From contig JAGVPT010000114.1 of NCBI GenBank assembly GCA_020052095.1, forward strand, positions 1 to 38,220: 38,220 nt of DNA. Reading direction: 5' to 3'. The stretch is from Bacteroidota bacterium (lineage in GTDB: Bacteria > Bacteroidota > Ignavibacteria > UBA10030 > UBA8401). Below are positions 21,074 through 28,139 of the stretch, piece after piece (the stretch's first letter is position 1; every line of letters starts with the position of its first letter). The notes beneath the pieces are model-generated. The model worked only from the letters and a program-made list of their open reading frames with translations, searched no databases and was not told the DNA's origin. A program made the position numbers and the translations under genes.

Positions 21074-22237
21074 ATGAAAACAAAAACACTTTTTCTTTTT
21101 TTGTTGGTGATCGGATTTGTATCGGTCCAACGAGCACCCGCTCAAGGGTATACAGCAACCGCTGTATATGTCGATGCGGATATTATCAACGCAACGTCGC
21201 TTGTTGATCCCCTTTCAGAAAAGATCAAGGATGTTCCTATAACAAGCTTTTCGCTCGTTATAGCTAATCCCAATCAAAAGGATATTTGGGTCAACATGCA
21301 ATTAAGTTCGCACGTGACACTCGATGAAGACGGCGTACGAAAGTCGATGTTCGTGTCTGACCCACAAACGGCGAAGCCGTTCAGAGTTCCGCCCGGGGGA
21401 AGAGTATTTCGCAGTCTGGACGCGAGCAGCAGTGAATTCGATTTTAGCTTCAAGATCGATGAGGCCGAGAAGAAAATATTGAAGGACAAAATATCAGATG
21501 CTGGAAGCGGTGGAAGAGTCCCTTCCGGAAGGTACGAAGTGGACATCGCCATGCAGGTTGTCAAGATTGGGGATTCAACGCTTACTACTTCTCCTCTCAA
21601 TGACATTCATATCTCGCCCTCTTCCCATATCGAAGTATCGGTGACTAACCCGACGAATGCGACACTTATCCAACCATCCGAAAATGGATTTGAGTATCCG
21701 TCGCCGTTCCCGCAATTCCAATGGGCGTATGATACGCGCGGAGTAACAATTTCTGTGTACGAAAAGAGGCCGGAGCAGCAGTCACTCGAAGATGCAATCT
21801 CAGCGTCGGATCCGTTCCTGCAACTCGAGGTCAAGCGCAAAGAGTCCGGCAACCTTTCGATTTTCACATATCCTCAGGCACCCGTCGGCGGCCCGGGTAT
21901 CAACATCTTGAAAGGACCCCGTCCTCTTGAACGGGGAAAATCGTACGTGGTCGTTCTGGACGGAACCCGGACAGCATTCGGGTACAACATCGATCCGCTC
22001 CGCACCATACGATTATTCCGTATTTCCGACCCGCAGGGTCAGATGATTCTGAACATCTTGCAGACGGCACTGAGCGGTGGCACCTATCAGAACTTTTTGA
22101 ATGTCATTCAAGATCAGAAGCTGCAGATCAACAGTTCGCGCCTGACGCTGAACGGTGTCACGATCTCAGCGCAGGAACTCCAGGTAATCTTGAATCAGAA
22201 TAAAGACAAAATCAAAACTATTCGATTTGAAGACTAA
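21074..22237 (+). CDS. Secreted protein with Ig-like domains (envelope cluster)
   Basis: A 387-residue exported protein of unknown function. The ATG at 21074 is chosen over upstream in-frame codons because GGGAGAG precedes it and it starts a textbook signal peptide (MKTKTLFLFLLVIGFVSV, cleavage near PAQG). The middle looks like all-beta, Ig/FnIII-like modules: one ends in VPSGRYEVDIAMQVV, and the next opens with an LIQP-ENG-PSPFPQFQW pattern often seen in Bacteroidota surface proteins. The C-terminal 70 residues are polar and Gln/Asn-rich (LNVIQDQKLQINSSRLTL). It begins 100 bp after rseP and 50 bp before the FecR gene, so it may be the first gene of the four-gene envelope cluster. Confidence 0.78.
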   Translation: MKTKTLFLFLLVIGFVSVQRAPAQGYTATAVYVDADIINATSLVDPLSEKIKDVPITSFSLVIANPNQKDIWVNMQLSSHVTLDEDGVRKSMFVSDPQTAKPFRVPPGGRVFRSLDASSSEFDFSFKIDEAEKKILKDKISDAGSGGRVPSGRYEVDIAMQVVKIGDSTLTTSPLNDIHISPSSHIEVSVTNPTNATLIQPSENGFEYPSPFPQFQWAYDTRGVTISVYEKRPEQQSLEDAISASDPFLQLEVKRKESGNLSIFTYPQAPVGGPGINILKGPRPLERGKSYVVVLDGTRTAFGYNIDPLRTIRLFRISDPQGQMILNILQTALSGGTYQNFLNVIQDQKLQINSSRLTLNGVTISAQELQVILNQNKDKIKTIRFED

Positions 22238-22287: not shown

Positions 22288-23373
22288 ATGAGAACAATTT
22301 GCGTACTTCTTGCGGTGTCAATGGTCTTTGCAGTGAGTGTGGCTGTATCAGCACCTCTGTATGATCCAAACAAGCCGATCGCGATCATCTATAAGCCGGT
22401 CGGGACCGTCGATTTTATGAAGGATGGGAAGGACTGGACGAAAGCCGCGGCTGCAACCCCATTGACGACCGGTGACAGAGTGAAAACCGGCGATAATTCC
22501 TTCGTGATCATCAAGTTCATCGAGAACTCCATCCTGCGTTTGCAGGAAAAATCGGAGATCACAATTCACGGCGAGCTGTCGGCCAACAAAGAATTTTCGA
22601 AGAACGTCCATCTCGAACGAGGGCAACTCGGATTCGACGTGAAAAAGCAGGTAAACGAGAAATTCGAATTCTCAACGCCGACCTCGGTCGCCTCGATCCG
22701 CGGCACGGAAGGCTTGCTCATCAACGGCGGGGACAGCGCCGACGTCCTGATTCTTGGAACGGGCGTAGTTGTGTTTACGAATACAGTTTCCAACCAGTCC
22801 GTCAACGTTAACGGCGGGCAAACTGCCCATTCGTACGCGAATGGCACCATTGAGGTGAAGCAGACAACGCCTGAAGAATTGAAGAAGTTGCAGGAGACTT
22901 CGGGTAGCGGAGGCGGCGGAGGCGGCGGAACCGGCGGTTCAAGTGGAACATCGTCAGCGGGCAGCTTCTCTGTTGGATTTGCAATCACATCAACGGTGGT
23001 GACCGAAGGAAAAGACTTTGAGGTCACCGTGGAACTTGTACAGATTTCCGTTCCGGTCGACACGTTGAAATCAATCGTTTCGTACTTCGCCCTGGCCTAC
23101 AAGAATTCGGCGGCTGCGGCCTACAAGGAAGTACCGGCAACAATTTCGGGGGCCAAGGTAAAATTCAAGATCCCGGGAGTCGACGTCGTGAGTCCATCCA
23201 TGCAGGTCTACGTTATCTTCAGAACCAAGACCGGAATCGATATGACATATCCTCCGGCAGACCCGCAGTCGAATCCGATCGTCATTCCGGTTCAATCGAC
23301 AAAGTCGAATCAATTAAAACTTGAATTCTCTGACCCGAGTGGTAAACGGAAGACGATGATAATAGAGTATTAG
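22288..23373 (+). CDS. Secreted FecR-domain protein with barrel-partner domain
   Basis: A 361-residue exported protein. Signal peptide 1-22 (cleavage near VSAP). FecR domain at about 35-150: GDRVKTGDNSFVIIKFIENS and LRLQEKSEITIHGE, then FEFSTPTSVASIRGTEGLL. A Ser/Gly linker follows (205-224, with seven consecutive glycines). A C-terminal beta domain (about 225-340) resembles the N-terminal domain of the next gene's product: P303-V335 aligns without gaps to its P100-V132 with 15 identities. FecR here lacks the transmembrane anti-sigma part, so it is not a classical sigma regulator. An SD (GGAGAT) precedes the ATG. A strong terminator follows the stop. Confidence 0.85.
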   Translation: MRTICVLLAVSMVFAVSVAVSAPLYDPNKPIAIIYKPVGTVDFMKDGKDWTKAAAATPLTTGDRVKTGDNSFVIIKFIENSILRLQEKSEITIHGELSANKEFSKNVHLERGQLGFDVKKQVNEKFEFSTPTSVASIRGTEGLLINGGDSADVLILGTGVVVFTNTVSNQSVNVNGGQTAHSYANGTIEVKQTTPEELKKLQETSGSGGGGGGGTGGSSGTSSAGSFSVGFAITSTVVTEGKDFEVTVELVQISVPVDTLKSIVSYFALAYKNSAAAAYKEVPATISGAKVKFKIPGVDVVSPSMQVYVIFRTKTGIDMTYPPADPQSNPIVIPVQSTKSNQLKLEFSDPSGKRKTMIIEY

Positions 23374-23390
23374 CAGTCCGTTTCTCGCTG

Positions 23391-23442
23391 AAAAACCGCT
23401 TGCAATTCTCTGCTTCATTTTCTAGATTGCAAGCGGTTTTTT
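23391..23442 (+). terminator. Rho-independent terminator after the FecR gene
   Basis: Arms AAACCGCTTGCAAT and ATTGCAAGCGGTTT form a 14-base stem around an 18-base loop, followed by a TTTTTT run. A matching A-run precedes the left arm, so it could work in both directions. It lies 17 bp after the FecR stop and 38 bp before the start of the barrel gene. Transcription of the last two cluster genes may therefore be reduced by it or start afresh. Confidence 0.85.
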
Positions 23443-23480
23443 ATTGCTCCCATTATTCCTCCACCTTCGTCCGGTCTGCT

Positions 23481-25928
23481 ATGGATACTTTATACAGAAG
23501 AGCGTCCACACTGTTTTCGCGATGCATTGCTGCAGTACTAGTGTTCGCGCCGCTTATTGCAAATTCCCAGATCAACACGTATGTTCGGACCGTGCATGCC
23601 GAGCAAGCTCGGGAGGGAATGCCGATGCGCGTTTCGGCGGAGCTAGCAAAATCGTCGGAACTCTCCCGCGTCGTGTTGTACTACCGCCAGTTCGGCCAGT
23701 CTGAATTTCGCATACTCGAAATGCCCATCATGGGCGATACGGCGACAGTGACGATTTCTGAAGATGAAGTGACTCCACCGTTCATGGAAGTGTATGTTCT
23801 CGCGCAAACGCAATCCGGAGCGATCGAGACCTACCCGTTTGAGAATCCTCAGGCAACACCGACGCGATTGCCGGTCTCCCCAAAATCCCCAAAAGATCAG
23901 GAAGTCTTGATATTGAGTCCCGACAGGGCCGAGCAATTACTCGCATCGGATATTTACATTTCCATTTCGTTCGTCTATGCGAGTGATCGGATAGACCGTA
24001 AAAGGACAAAAATTTTCTTCGACAACATCGACGTGTCGGCGCTTGCAGTCAACATCGGCGATCTGACGATCGTCTCACCGGATGCTCTTCCGAAAAATAT
24101 CGCAACGGGTTCGCACAAGCTGCGGATCGATGTCTATGACACGACAAACGCGCCGTACCATTCCGTGGAACGGACGATGAAAGTAGTGTCTGAACAGCAG
24201 GCCGAGGCAATACGGGAACACGTGCAATACTCGGCGAACGCACAGGCAGAAGGACGAAATGAAGACATCAAGGGGACGCAGACCCTCTACAAACGACTCA
24301 ATGCACGCGCGAACGCATCATACGGAATTCTGAAAACGACGGGCAATATCCAGCTAACCTCGGAAGAGCAAGCCGACCGGCAGCCGCAAAACCGGTACTT
24401 TCTCGGCCTCGACGCGAAGTACGTACGACTCGGCATCGGCGACGCGTATCCCCGCTTTCCCTCGACGGTACTAGACGGCAGGCGTATCCGCGGCCTCACA
24501 GCGGAACTTCTGCTCGGCCCGTTTAACGTTAATTACGCGAACGGCGAGATTATCCGGAGAGTTGATGGCGATACTCTCGTTCAAACAAGAGATACTATCA
24601 CAACCAGGACCTATATTCCTCCAACGCTGAGGCGGAAATTGACAATCCTCAGGCCGAGTTTCGGCAAAGGTGAAAATTTTCAAATCGGCTTTACCTATCT
24701 GAAAGCCAAGGACGAGTTCGATACAAGCCAGGACAAAGGGGTGAAGCCGCAAGAGAACGTGGTGGTGGGAACCGATGCGGTACTTGCGTTTGACGACCAT
24801 CGTTTTGAATTAACAGCTCAGGCGTCGTACAGTTTGAACAATATCGACATTTCTGCTCCGGAATTCACCGACGCAAGCATTGATAGTTCGAAAACACTCA
24901 CAGACGACGTCAAAAAGCTCTTACATAAATACGGAATCCCGTACCTCTCAAAAGTAATTACGGTTAATGAAAACATCCAACCTCTTCCCCCCGGCATTAC
25001 AGCTTTGGTGTACGAAACCGGACTCGCCTTTAATTACTTCGGCAATTATTTGAAGGGGTCGTACATTTACCACGGCGCGGATTATCTCTCGGTCGGAACA
25101 ACGGCGTTGCGACGAGACGTGAAGGGCTTCAACATTTTTGACAGAATCCGGTTGTTCCAGAACAGCGTCTTCCTCACCGGAAGCTATGAACGACTCCAAA
25201 ATATCAGGGGCGATTCTATATTGACGACGAAGCCCCCAATTCAATTGACGACGACATATCAGACTGTCAACACATCAGTGTCGTACTACCCGACCTCGAA
25301 CATGCCGAACATTACCCTCGGCTACGGCATCAACAAGAACAGCAACCCGATCGATCCTCTCGAAACGAACCCGTCCGTTGCCAACCGTGCGATCGATGAC
25401 AAAACGAACAGATATTTCCTCCAGTCGACGTACGACTTTGCCTATCGGGGGAGACACAACGCAACGTTAAGCCTAGACATTTCCAACAAAACCGACAACA
25501 CCACGAAGAAACAGGATGCACAAAGCTTCAATGCGTTACTGCTCGTGAATACCGTACACACCTTTCCGCTGGAAACCACCTTCGGATATTCGATGAGCCT
25601 GAACACGATCCCGCTGGTCACGGTCGACACGACCGGCGGAATATTCAGACCGGTTGTCTCGTCGGCCTCACTGAACTATACCACCATAACACTGAACGGC
25701 CGCTACAAGATCTACAAAGAGGTTCTGAAATTGTCGGGAACATTCGCGCCGACATTCGGCGACTTCAAGCGGACAGTGTTTGAAGTGGGATTGCAATACG
25801 CCATCACGCAAAATCAGAACGCGGCGTTCCAGTATCAATACATCATTAATACGCCTCCGCCGCCCGGGACCATCCAGGCAAGCGACAATGATTCGTATGT
25901 CAGCTTGCTCTACCGCATCGATTTGTAA
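23481..25928 (+). CDS. Large outer-membrane barrel protein with N-terminal Ig-like domains
   Basis: 815 residues. The ATG at 23481 starts a signal peptide (hydrophobic about 12-28, cleavage near IANSQ); an upstream in-frame TTG lies inside the preceding terminator and is rejected. Residues about 30-135 form the domain shared with the FecR protein (PFMEVYVLAQTQSG, then TYP-PQ-P-PV). A second beta module follows (about 140-240, ILSPDRAEQLLASDIYISISF). From about 270 to the end is a series of amphipathic strands rich in Tyr, Asn and Thr, ending YVSLLYRIDL, as in a large barrel. No TonB plug is recognisable. No family is known to me. The CHASE2 cyclase starts six bp downstream. Confidence 0.8.
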   Translation: MDTLYRRASTLFSRCIAAVLVFAPLIANSQINTYVRTVHAEQAREGMPMRVSAELAKSSELSRVVLYYRQFGQSEFRILEMPIMGDTATVTISEDEVTPPFMEVYVLAQTQSGAIETYPFENPQATPTRLPVSPKSPKDQEVLILSPDRAEQLLASDIYISISFVYASDRIDRKRTKIFFDNIDVSALAVNIGDLTIVSPDALPKNIATGSHKLRIDVYDTTNAPYHSVERTMKVVSEQQAEAIREHVQYSANAQAEGRNEDIKGTQTLYKRLNARANASYGILKTTGNIQLTSEEQADRQPQNRYFLGLDAKYVRLGIGDAYPRFPSTVLDGRRIRGLTAELLLGPFNVNYANGEIIRRVDGDTLVQTRDTITTRTYIPPTLRRKLTILRPSFGKGENFQIGFTYLKAKDEFDTSQDKGVKPQENVVVGTDAVLAFDDHRFELTAQASYSLNNIDISAPEFTDASIDSSKTLTDDVKKLLHKYGIPYLSKVITVNENIQPLPPGITALVYETGLAFNYFGNYLKGSYIYHGADYLSVGTTALRRDVKGFNIFDRIRLFQNSVFLTGSYERLQNIRGDSILTTKPPIQLTTTYQTVNTSVSYYPTSNMPNITLGYGINKNSNPIDPLETNPSVANRAIDDKTNRYFLQSTYDFAYRGRHNATLSLDISNKTDNTTKKQDAQSFNALLLVNTVHTFPLETTFGYSMSLNTIPLVTVDTTGGIFRPVVSSASLNYTTITLNGRYKIYKEVLKLSGTFAPTFGDFKRTVFEVGLQYAITQNQNAAFQYQYIINTPPPPGTIQASDNDSYVSLLYRIDL

Positions 25929-25934
25929 CCGCCT

Positions 25935-28139
25935 ATGGCCCAGCCACTTTCAAAACGTTTGATGCCGTGGCTCATTCGGGTTCTCCTCAGCTTGGGCATC
26001 GCCTTGCTGGTGATCGTCTTTGTACAAGACGCGGTGTTCCAATTCCATTTTTTCGACCGGCTCAAGCTCTCCTTCATCGATAAGTCATTCGCGAAACGCG
26101 GGCCTCTCCCCTTCTCCAAAGATTCGCTCGACATCGTTCTCGTCACCATTTCCGAAAAATCCGACGCGACCTCGCCAGAACATTTTCCATTTCCGAGAAG
26201 CTACTACGCGCACGCTATCCGCAATCTCAATAACGCCGGCGTGCGGGCGATCGGAGTCGACTTGACGTTTGAAGAACCCGATGAACACGGGCTCCAACAC
26301 GATGTCGAGCTGTACGAGGCGATTCAAAAATATCGAAACGTTGTCGTTGCAGGCAAAACAGAAATACGGAGTGACAAGGGGACGATTAGAAGGCAGAATG
26401 AGAATTACCACAGCATTTTTTATTCGGCGGATAGTTCTGTAGGAGTCGTGTACGTCCCGAACGATGAAGACGGCCTGTACCGACGGTATAAGGCAATTGC
26501 AAAAAGTCCCGGGCAAGAGACGTATGTCCCAACCTTTGCGTTCGCTCTGATGAACAAGTACCTCCATCTTCCCTCAACAGAAGTATGCAAAGAGGAGGGC
26601 GACTATTTTGTTCTTGGTGAGCGGCGCATTCCGAAGTTTGACGATGTGTCAATGTTGATTAATTATCACGGGCTTTCGGGCCAGACGTTCAAACAAATCG
26701 ATATCGTCGAAGTCCTCGATGACAAGACCTTTCAGACAAACGAAGAGATCAACCTCAACACTGACATCAACACGTTTGACGACCCCGATTATGGATTGCT
26801 GCACACCAATACATTCAAAAACAAGATTGTGCTGATCGGACCGGCGTTCCCGGAATCGAAAGACATATTTCCCGTATCTATCGCCGACCCCAACAACCCC
26901 GACAGCAACCTGATGTACGGAGTGGAAATCCACTCTAATGCGCTGCAGACGTTGATCCATCAGAATTTTATCGTGCGTCCTTCGCTTTTTCTGGAAGTGC
27001 TGTACACGATAGCTTACTCCCTGCTGAGTTTTCTCGTGGTGTCGGCATTGAAACAGATCAAGGCCAGATTCGAATTCATCCTGGAAATTGTTGCGCTGGT
27101 CTTCGTCGCCGCTGAACTTTACTCCATCATCCTCCTTTCGGATTTCGCGTTCTCCGCGCACAATATGCTCATCCCCGTCGTCCCTCCCATCGCCGCCGTT
27201 TTCGCCAATTATGTTGGCAGCGCGGTGTACCAGTATCTCACGGAGCGGAAGCAAAAAGTGATGATCAAAGGTATGTTCAGCCAGTACTTAAACCCTCATG
27301 TCGTGAACGAACTTATTGCACATCCGGAAAAGATGCGGCTTGGGGGCGAGCGTCGGGAATTGACAGTGCTCTTCAGCGATATCGCCGGTTTCACAACGTT
27401 CTCGGAGAAACTTCCCCCTGAAGAACTCGTGCTCGTGCTAAACGAATACCTGAGCGCGATGACGGAAATTGTTTTCAACAACGACGGCACGCTCGACAAA
27501 TACGAGGGCGATGCCGTAATGGCGTTCTGGGGCGCCCCCATCGAACTGGACAACAACGCCCTCCATGCGTGCACAGCGGCGCTGGAAATGCAGGAGAGAC
27601 TGGTGCAGATCCGCGAAAAATGGAGTGCCGAAGGCAAACCTAATGTCCATGTACGCATCGGATTGAACACAGGTGAAATGGTCGTCGGCAATATGGGAGG
27701 AACAGGAAAGTTCGACTACACGGTTATCGGCGACAGCGTGAACCTAGGCTCTCGCCTTGAGGGAGCCAACAAGCAATACGGAACGTATATCATGACCAGC
27801 GAGCGGACGCAGGAGATGGTGAAAGAACATTTTGTGTTTCGTGAGCTTGATTTGCTTGTCGTGAAGGGAAAAACGAAGCCGATCAAAGTGTTCGAGCTTA
27901 TAGGGAGAAAAAACGACAGCGTGTCGCCAAAGAAGATTTCTGCGATCGGACAATACAGAATCGGACTAGATCTCTATCGCCAAAAGAAGTTCTCAGAAGC
28001 GATTGAGAAGTTTAATGAAGCTCTCAGTATCGAGCCGGACGATCAGCCCTCCAGACTCTACATAGAACGCTCACAGCTATATCTGACCAATCCACCCCCG
28101 GAAGAATGGAACGGCGTCTTCATCCTGAAGACGAAGTAA
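25935..28139 (+). CDS. CHASE2-domain adenylate cyclase with TPR tail
   Basis: 734 residues. One membrane segment near 12-32, an extracytoplasmic CHASE2 domain (about 45-345, with GVRAIGVDLTFEEPDEHG and ENKIVLIG-like strand), three membrane segments (about 350-440) and a class III nucleotidyl cyclase domain (about 470-655). The catalytic set is complete: metal Asp D482 (FSDIAGF) and D526 (YEGDAVMAF), adenine-selecting K522 and D600, and transition-state N603 and R607 (DSVNLGSRLEG). A TPR-like pair follows (about 675-725). It should make cAMP in response to an envelope signal. The start lies six bp after the barrel gene, implying translational coupling and a shared task. Confidence 0.94.
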   Translation: MAQPLSKRLMPWLIRVLLSLGIALLVIVFVQDAVFQFHFFDRLKLSFIDKSFAKRGPLPFSKDSLDIVLVTISEKSDATSPEHFPFPRSYYAHAIRNLNNAGVRAIGVDLTFEEPDEHGLQHDVELYEAIQKYRNVVVAGKTEIRSDKGTIRRQNENYHSIFYSADSSVGVVYVPNDEDGLYRRYKAIAKSPGQETYVPTFAFALMNKYLHLPSTEVCKEEGDYFVLGERRIPKFDDVSMLINYHGLSGQTFKQIDIVEVLDDKTFQTNEEINLNTDINTFDDPDYGLLHTNTFKNKIVLIGPAFPESKDIFPVSIADPNNPDSNLMYGVEIHSNALQTLIHQNFIVRPSLFLEVLYTIAYSLLSFLVVSALKQIKARFEFILEIVALVFVAAELYSIILLSDFAFSAHNMLIPVVPPIAAVFANYVGSAVYQYLTERKQKVMIKGMFSQYLNPHVVNELIAHPEKMRLGGERRELTVLFSDIAGFTTFSEKLPPEELVLVLNEYLSAMTEIVFNNDGTLDKYEGDAVMAFWGAPIELDNNALHACTAALEMQERLVQIREKWSAEGKPNVHVRIGLNTGEMVVGNMGGTGKFDYTVIGDSVNLGSRLEGANKQYGTYIMTSERTQEMVKEHFVFRELDLLVVKGKTKPIKVFELIGRKNDSVSPKKISAIGQYRIGLDLYRQKKFSEAIEKFNEALSIEPDDQPSRLYIERSQLYLTNPPPEEWNGVFILKTK

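Follow-up and report, generated by a model that had tools for sequence, protein, structure and literature searches.

The window, meaning the whole stretch of 38,220 nucleotides that was analysed, contains four genes in the order P3, FecR, Ig-Ig-barrel and CHASE2/adenylate cyclase-TPR, and these genes and all features described below lie on the forward strand. The first open reading frame, P3 (21038..22237, with an alternative ATG start at 21074), encodes a predicted exported protein of no known family, with no match in Pfam or NCBIfam. Homologues of P3 lie immediately upstream of FecR throughout the order and also in further classes, and P3 is probably the fourth part of the relay discussed below.

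The second gene (22288..23373) encodes a FecR-domain protein of 361 aa with an N-terminal hydrophobic signal. Residues 63–155 match PF04773 with an E-value of 5.8e-11 and 43.1 bits, against a curated cut-off of 24, and the AlphaFold2 model finds the FecR-type anti-sigma structures 4m0n and 6ovk in Foldseek. The FecR core also resembles the NCBIfam models of the Leptospira surface proteins Lsa33 and LipL45, with scores far below the cut-offs, a resemblance that is probably through the FecR domain alone. A Gly/Ser-rich linker (residues about 207–225, 22906..22962; low pLDDT at 207–221) leads to an inserted Ig-like domain (residues 226–336, 22963..23295), and the protein ends in a conserved beta-hairpin tail recognized in alignments, LKLEFSDPSGKRKTMIIEY (23305..23370; strands 342–348 and 354–360).

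The third gene (23481..25928) encodes a predicted outer-membrane beta-barrel protein of 815 aa with two N-terminal domains, the assignment coming from the long run of strands in its AlphaFold2 model, Foldseek matches to outer-membrane barrels and homologues found phylum-wide. Its first domain, the homologue of the FecR insert, covers residues 31–137 (23571..23891), counted from the ATG at 23481 as in the initial annotation, and its second (23898..24218) is mostly beta by its predicted strands, with no Pfam match. The fourth gene (25935..28139) encodes a CHASE2-adenylate/guanylate cyclase-TPR protein of 734 aa (PF05226, E 7e-47; PF00211, E 4.8e-25; TPR).

Between the FecR and barrel genes lies a conserved element at 23396..23442, CCGCTTGCAA..TAGATTGCAAGCGG-T6, which can also be written GCTTGCAAnTCT-n8-TTT-nATAGATTGCAAGCG followed by T6, with a fold z of -5.1. 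Its core is invariant in 11 of 11 aligned FecR-barrel intergenic regions of family f1, and the genome holds one exact copy. Within the inverted repeat the element carries a TTG and a TAGATTG at a spacing of 20 nt, which we take to resemble a Bacteroidetes-type promoter. At one related locus (L078) the second arm of the element has been lost with TTG..TAGATT retained, and there, as at L088, a separate terminator-like hairpin stands ahead of the element. The element may be read either as an inverted repeat that encloses a promoter-like spacing or as a terminator hairpin; no Rfam match was found in the window.

Homology and fold of the shared domain

The region at residues ~226–336 of FecR and that at residues ~31–137 of the barrel protein are homologous. 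The initial annotation had claimed this homology between neighbouring genes on the strength of 15 identities in 33 ungapped positions (P303–V335 of FecR against P100–V132 of the barrel), a count that is exact on the sequence, and both the homology and the adjacency of the genes proved right. BLASTP aligns FecR 240–335 with barrel 45–132 (~90 residues) at an E-value of 3e-8, and when the barrel was searched against the whole genome by tblastn, the FecR C-terminus was its sole good non-self match (E 5e-5); the next, at E 0.16, was to another part of the barrel. Profile–profile alignment and structural models had been named as checks of the homology, and both bear it out. Alignments of the FecR copies and of the barrel copies, built separately and compared with HHalign, match with a probability of 99.5% and an E-value of 7.5e-23 over 98 columns. 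The AlphaFold2 models, with mean pLDDT of 89 for FecR and 85 for the barrel, each place eight strands in identical order, at 227–235, 244–251, 264–273, 280–283, 290–295, 304–313, 318–321 and 331–336 in FecR and at 35–40, 49–55, 61–70, 77–81, 87–92, 101–110, 115–118 and 128–133 in the barrel.

A reading of this likeness as chance or convergent composition has only the shortness and divergence of the sequences in its favour, and against it stand the BLASTP and tblastn results and both HHalign comparisons; with the BLASTP and profile–profile matches in hand it can be dismissed with near certainty. As a control, the barrel's other N-terminal domain was compared with the shared domain and gave no signal (hhalign probability <1%), and a relationship between those two was rejected. 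In the window's own genome, which is 98.8% complete, a combined profile finds two copies of the shared domain, those in FecR and in the barrel.

The shared region is an eight-stranded Ig-like (IgSF-type) beta-sandwich. Pfam assigns no family to any of 43 barrel copies and gives only two stray weak matches among 21 FecR copies. A weak but significant match (E 2e-5) links the barrel-copy profile to the solved IgSF domain of the Porphyromonas peptidylarginine deiminase PPAD, which the combined profile also reaches (E 1e-4), the matches spanning about 65–70 residues; a profile of the FecR copies alone does not reach it. By fold, Foldseek aligns the FecR model to PPAD chains over 111 columns at an rmsd of 4.0. 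The PPAD domain has been described as a distorted 4+5-stranded sandwich, a beta-sandwich of 106 residues (PMC4487231). It is alike in both sequence relationship and fold but differs in context: PPAD is a T9SS cargo protein that carries it behind an enzyme domain, and the domain of the window belongs to a FecR adaptor and to an outer-membrane barrel protein. The barrel profile and PPAD have in common the pattern YR-G-F-M ... EYY ... G-ETYP, so much of the pattern by which the domain was initially recognized belongs to the fold, as a motif of an Ig-like type already known.

Related Ig-like domains also occur in unrelated T9SS-tailed proteins, one with VWA and MAM domains and others with HYDIN/FlgD-type parts; large proteins of these VWA/MAM and HYDIN/FlgD kinds that carry the same domain lie at L130:3069-7091, L129:1039-5709 and L129:6962-8806. 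The domain had been called undescribed, which holds in so far as Pfam has no family for it, but not in the sense of a new fold, because it is an Ig-like sandwich with a match to the solved PPAD domain and recurs in those T9SS-type proteins. The family has no Pfam entry at present and could receive one.

Distribution and origin of the FecR copy

The gene order of the cassette holds in almost every relative within the order for which enough contig is available, and also in other classes of the phylum. The compared sequences come mostly from draft genomes, and FecR or barrel reading frames that were incomplete, being cut at contig ends or split in two frames (L118, L119, L121, L127), were excluded from counts of presence and absence. 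On this basis the Ig-like domain is always present in the barrel. A FecR with the domain was found only in families f1 and f6 (16 and 17 genomes) and in no other family of the order. All f1 FecR proteins carry it except those of genus g6 (G006, G013), and only part of the f6 proteins do. Outside these two families the ~35 complete FecR proteins examined, of about 228–266 aa, are without it, and cassette FecR proteins of other classes are about 229–258 aa long. The initial annotation had raised the possibility that the domain always occurs in this gene pair; the search of other genomes answers no, since the barrel always has it and most cassette FecR proteins do not.

The barrel is not confined to the cassette. 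In families f39, f24 and f51 a homologue stands without FecR or cyclase adjoining, and may therefore have another role there. Barrel homologues of ~890–925 aa with the Ig-like domain were seen at five loci (L157, L158, L159, L163 and L168), with neither FecR nor CHASE2 cyclase as a neighbour.

The FecR core and the C-terminal hairpin (LKLEF-DPSG-RKTMIIEY and relatives) are common to all aligned FecR proteins, with or without the Ig-like domain. Where present, the domain lies between core and hairpin, after a low-complexity linker, in one copy or in three (three in G031, G349, G354 and G358). The copies of the three-copy proteins sort into groups a, b and c, of which c adjoins the tail, and the single copies of genera g18 and g167 group with c; copies a and b were therefore probably lost in these genera.

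In a quick tree built from the FecR core, the barrel minus its first domain and the cyclase, f1 and f6 are sister families (SH-aLRT 99). Three trait changes are needed on this tree, a count that suits a single gain plus losses as well as two gains and one loss. In a tree of the domain itself, which rests on 107 columns of a short domain, the FecR copies are united in a single clade (97/84) that excludes every barrel copy, with f1 copies grouped at 100/97 and f6 copies at 98/88. Earlier domain trees with fewer f6 sequences left a single origin unsupported (53/78), and the value of 97/84 came with more sequences. One clade of FecR copies favours one gain, and the phylogenies suggest that the domain was most likely gained once, in the ancestor of f1 and f6. 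Capture within each family, from the f1 barrel into f1 FecR and from the f6 barrel into f6 FecR, is not favoured, but trees in which FecR copies were joined to the barrels of their own family are not rejected (p-AU 0.11, 0.14 and 0.30), and a second capture may have taken place. Ongoing exchange between the neighbours, by gene conversion or by recent copying, was rejected, as the copies form separate clades and pairs from the same genome are not the most similar.

The initial suggestion of domain capture thus survives as an insertion into the FecR of two sister families, with one origin favoured. The closest relative found for the FecR domain is the barrel copy, and a donor other than the barrel gene, namely another Ig-like secreted protein, is unlikely, though it deserves serious consideration. 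T9SS proteins of the VWA/MAM and HYDIN types in the order carry related domains, and the best tree sets the FecR copies together with these, opposite all barrel copies, at a weak support of 68/29. Against such a donor, the barrel profile scores higher with f1 FecR copies than with the T9SS-type proteins, and the combined profile finds no further copy in the window's genome. In the preferred reading, the Ig-like domain would be an ancestral part of the barrel's periplasmic N-terminus, inserted between core and C-terminal hairpin of FecR, most likely once, in the common ancestor of the two sister families; some lineages would since have multiplied it to three copies or lost it.

Possible roles of the inserted domain

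That the two proteins share a domain had been taken as a hint that they bind the same partner, or each other. Barrel copies phylum-wide keep F71 (85%), E75 (75%), E80 (85%, plus D in 14%) and M81 (90%), and G72 is also strongly kept, whereas FecR copies mostly have K/Q at 71, P/A/T/S at 75, K/P/S and others at 80 and A/L at 81. If the conserved barrel residues form a binding surface, FecR would be without it. The absence of this signature from the FecR copies argues against a same partner bound through the same surface, and weakens the first of the two suggestions. The positions that barrel and FecR copies do have in common (Y68, R69, F76, Y105, P119 and P127) are mostly kept in unrelated Ig proteins too. 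The adjacent genes, the same fold and the single cassette with a CHASE2 cyclase would suit a common partner such as the CHASE2 domain or P3, which FecR and barrel would compete for or bridge to; with F71, E75, E80 and M81 replaced in FecR, and the cassette otherwise intact in many lineages whose FecR lacks the domain, this seems improbable.

Packing of the two Ig-like domains on each other, such that the insert strengthens a direct FecR-barrel contact, is a little easier to credit but still rather unlikely. In its favour, one and the same cell is expected to hold the two proteins in its periplasm or outer membrane, no further copy of the domain is found in the window's genome, and gain and loss affect FecR only. 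Little sign of co-evolution was found, however, in what is a weak test, the mean normalised rank of FecR against the barrel of its own genome being 0.38 in f1 and 0.54 in f6. Also doubtful, to a similar but slightly greater degree, is a fuller version in which FecR, within a phylum-wide relay from surface to cyclase, gained one or three copies of the Ig-like domain of its receptor, the number of which tunes docking between adaptor and receptor.

Many lineages have a full cassette whose FecR is without the domain, so the simplest view is that the domain is an accessory to the adaptor. The role of the cassette itself is probably to carry surface signals to an enzyme that makes cAMP: the barrel would receive the signal at the surface, FecR (and P3) would hand it on across the periplasm, and in response the CHASE2 cyclase at the inner membrane would make cAMP. 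The FecR Ig copy would then be an accessory periplasmic module, an extension or docking piece that adjusts the reach or contact of the adaptor and lies outside the core mechanism. Taken as a whole, this account, with an Ig domain ancestral in the barrel, its single insertion into FecR, a relay resembling NsrA-CyaK and an accessory module, is held with somewhat more confidence than doubt. Few cases show how CHASE2 cyclases get signals from outside the cell, and this cassette is compact and conserved across classes, with FecR and barrel as separate proteins. The natural series of FecR proteins with zero, one or three Ig copies offers ready variants with which to probe how the periplasmic relay is built.

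Comparison with known signalling systems

The FecA-FecR-FecI system is alike in its FecR domain fold and in a relay from an outer-membrane protein to FecR, but the output neighbour in the window is a cyclase and not a sigma factor. No TonB-dependent receptor or plug match was found for the barrel in Pfam, no anti-sigma domain was found, and there was no ECF sigma factor gene beside the cassette among the neighbours examined in the window and its relatives. With the TonB/plug parts and the sigma factor missing, assignment to this system was rejected.

A likeness, by description, is also seen to a cluster in Campylobacterota that comprises a FecR-domain outer-membrane protein, a CHASE2 cyclase and a TPR protein, the same kinds of parts, which have been proposed to make up one pathway (PMC9239204). 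That cluster also has a phosphodiesterase, and an Ig-like insert is not reported in the portion of the source consulted (PMC9239204).

The nearest counterpart is NsrA-CyaK of Sinorhizobium meliloti, in which an external protein signal evokes cAMP production that depends on both the NsrA receptor and CyaK (PMC7529298; PMC13001267). The profile of the cassette cyclases finds CyaK at 2.8e-110, so the window's cyclase and CyaK are homologous, and on pSymB (L171) the NsrA gene lies directly upstream of CyaK and encodes a FecR domain (2.2e-15) and TPR repeats; the C-terminal region of NsrA has been published as a beta-barrel (PMC7529298). In both cases a FecR domain, an outer-membrane beta-barrel and a CHASE2 cyclase are thus encoded side by side. 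S. meliloti, however, has FecR, TPR and barrel joined in a single outer-membrane receptor, whereas in the window and its relatives FecR and barrel are separate reading frames. The window's barrel furthermore has Ig-like domains, where the shared one was not found in NsrA at the thresholds used. The TPR of the cassette is part of the cyclase, and P3 is an additional component. As the NsrA-type fusion is absent here, the cassette is best said to work like this system and not to be a member of it, and we infer that the genes of the window represent a split form of an NsrA-CyaK-like relay.
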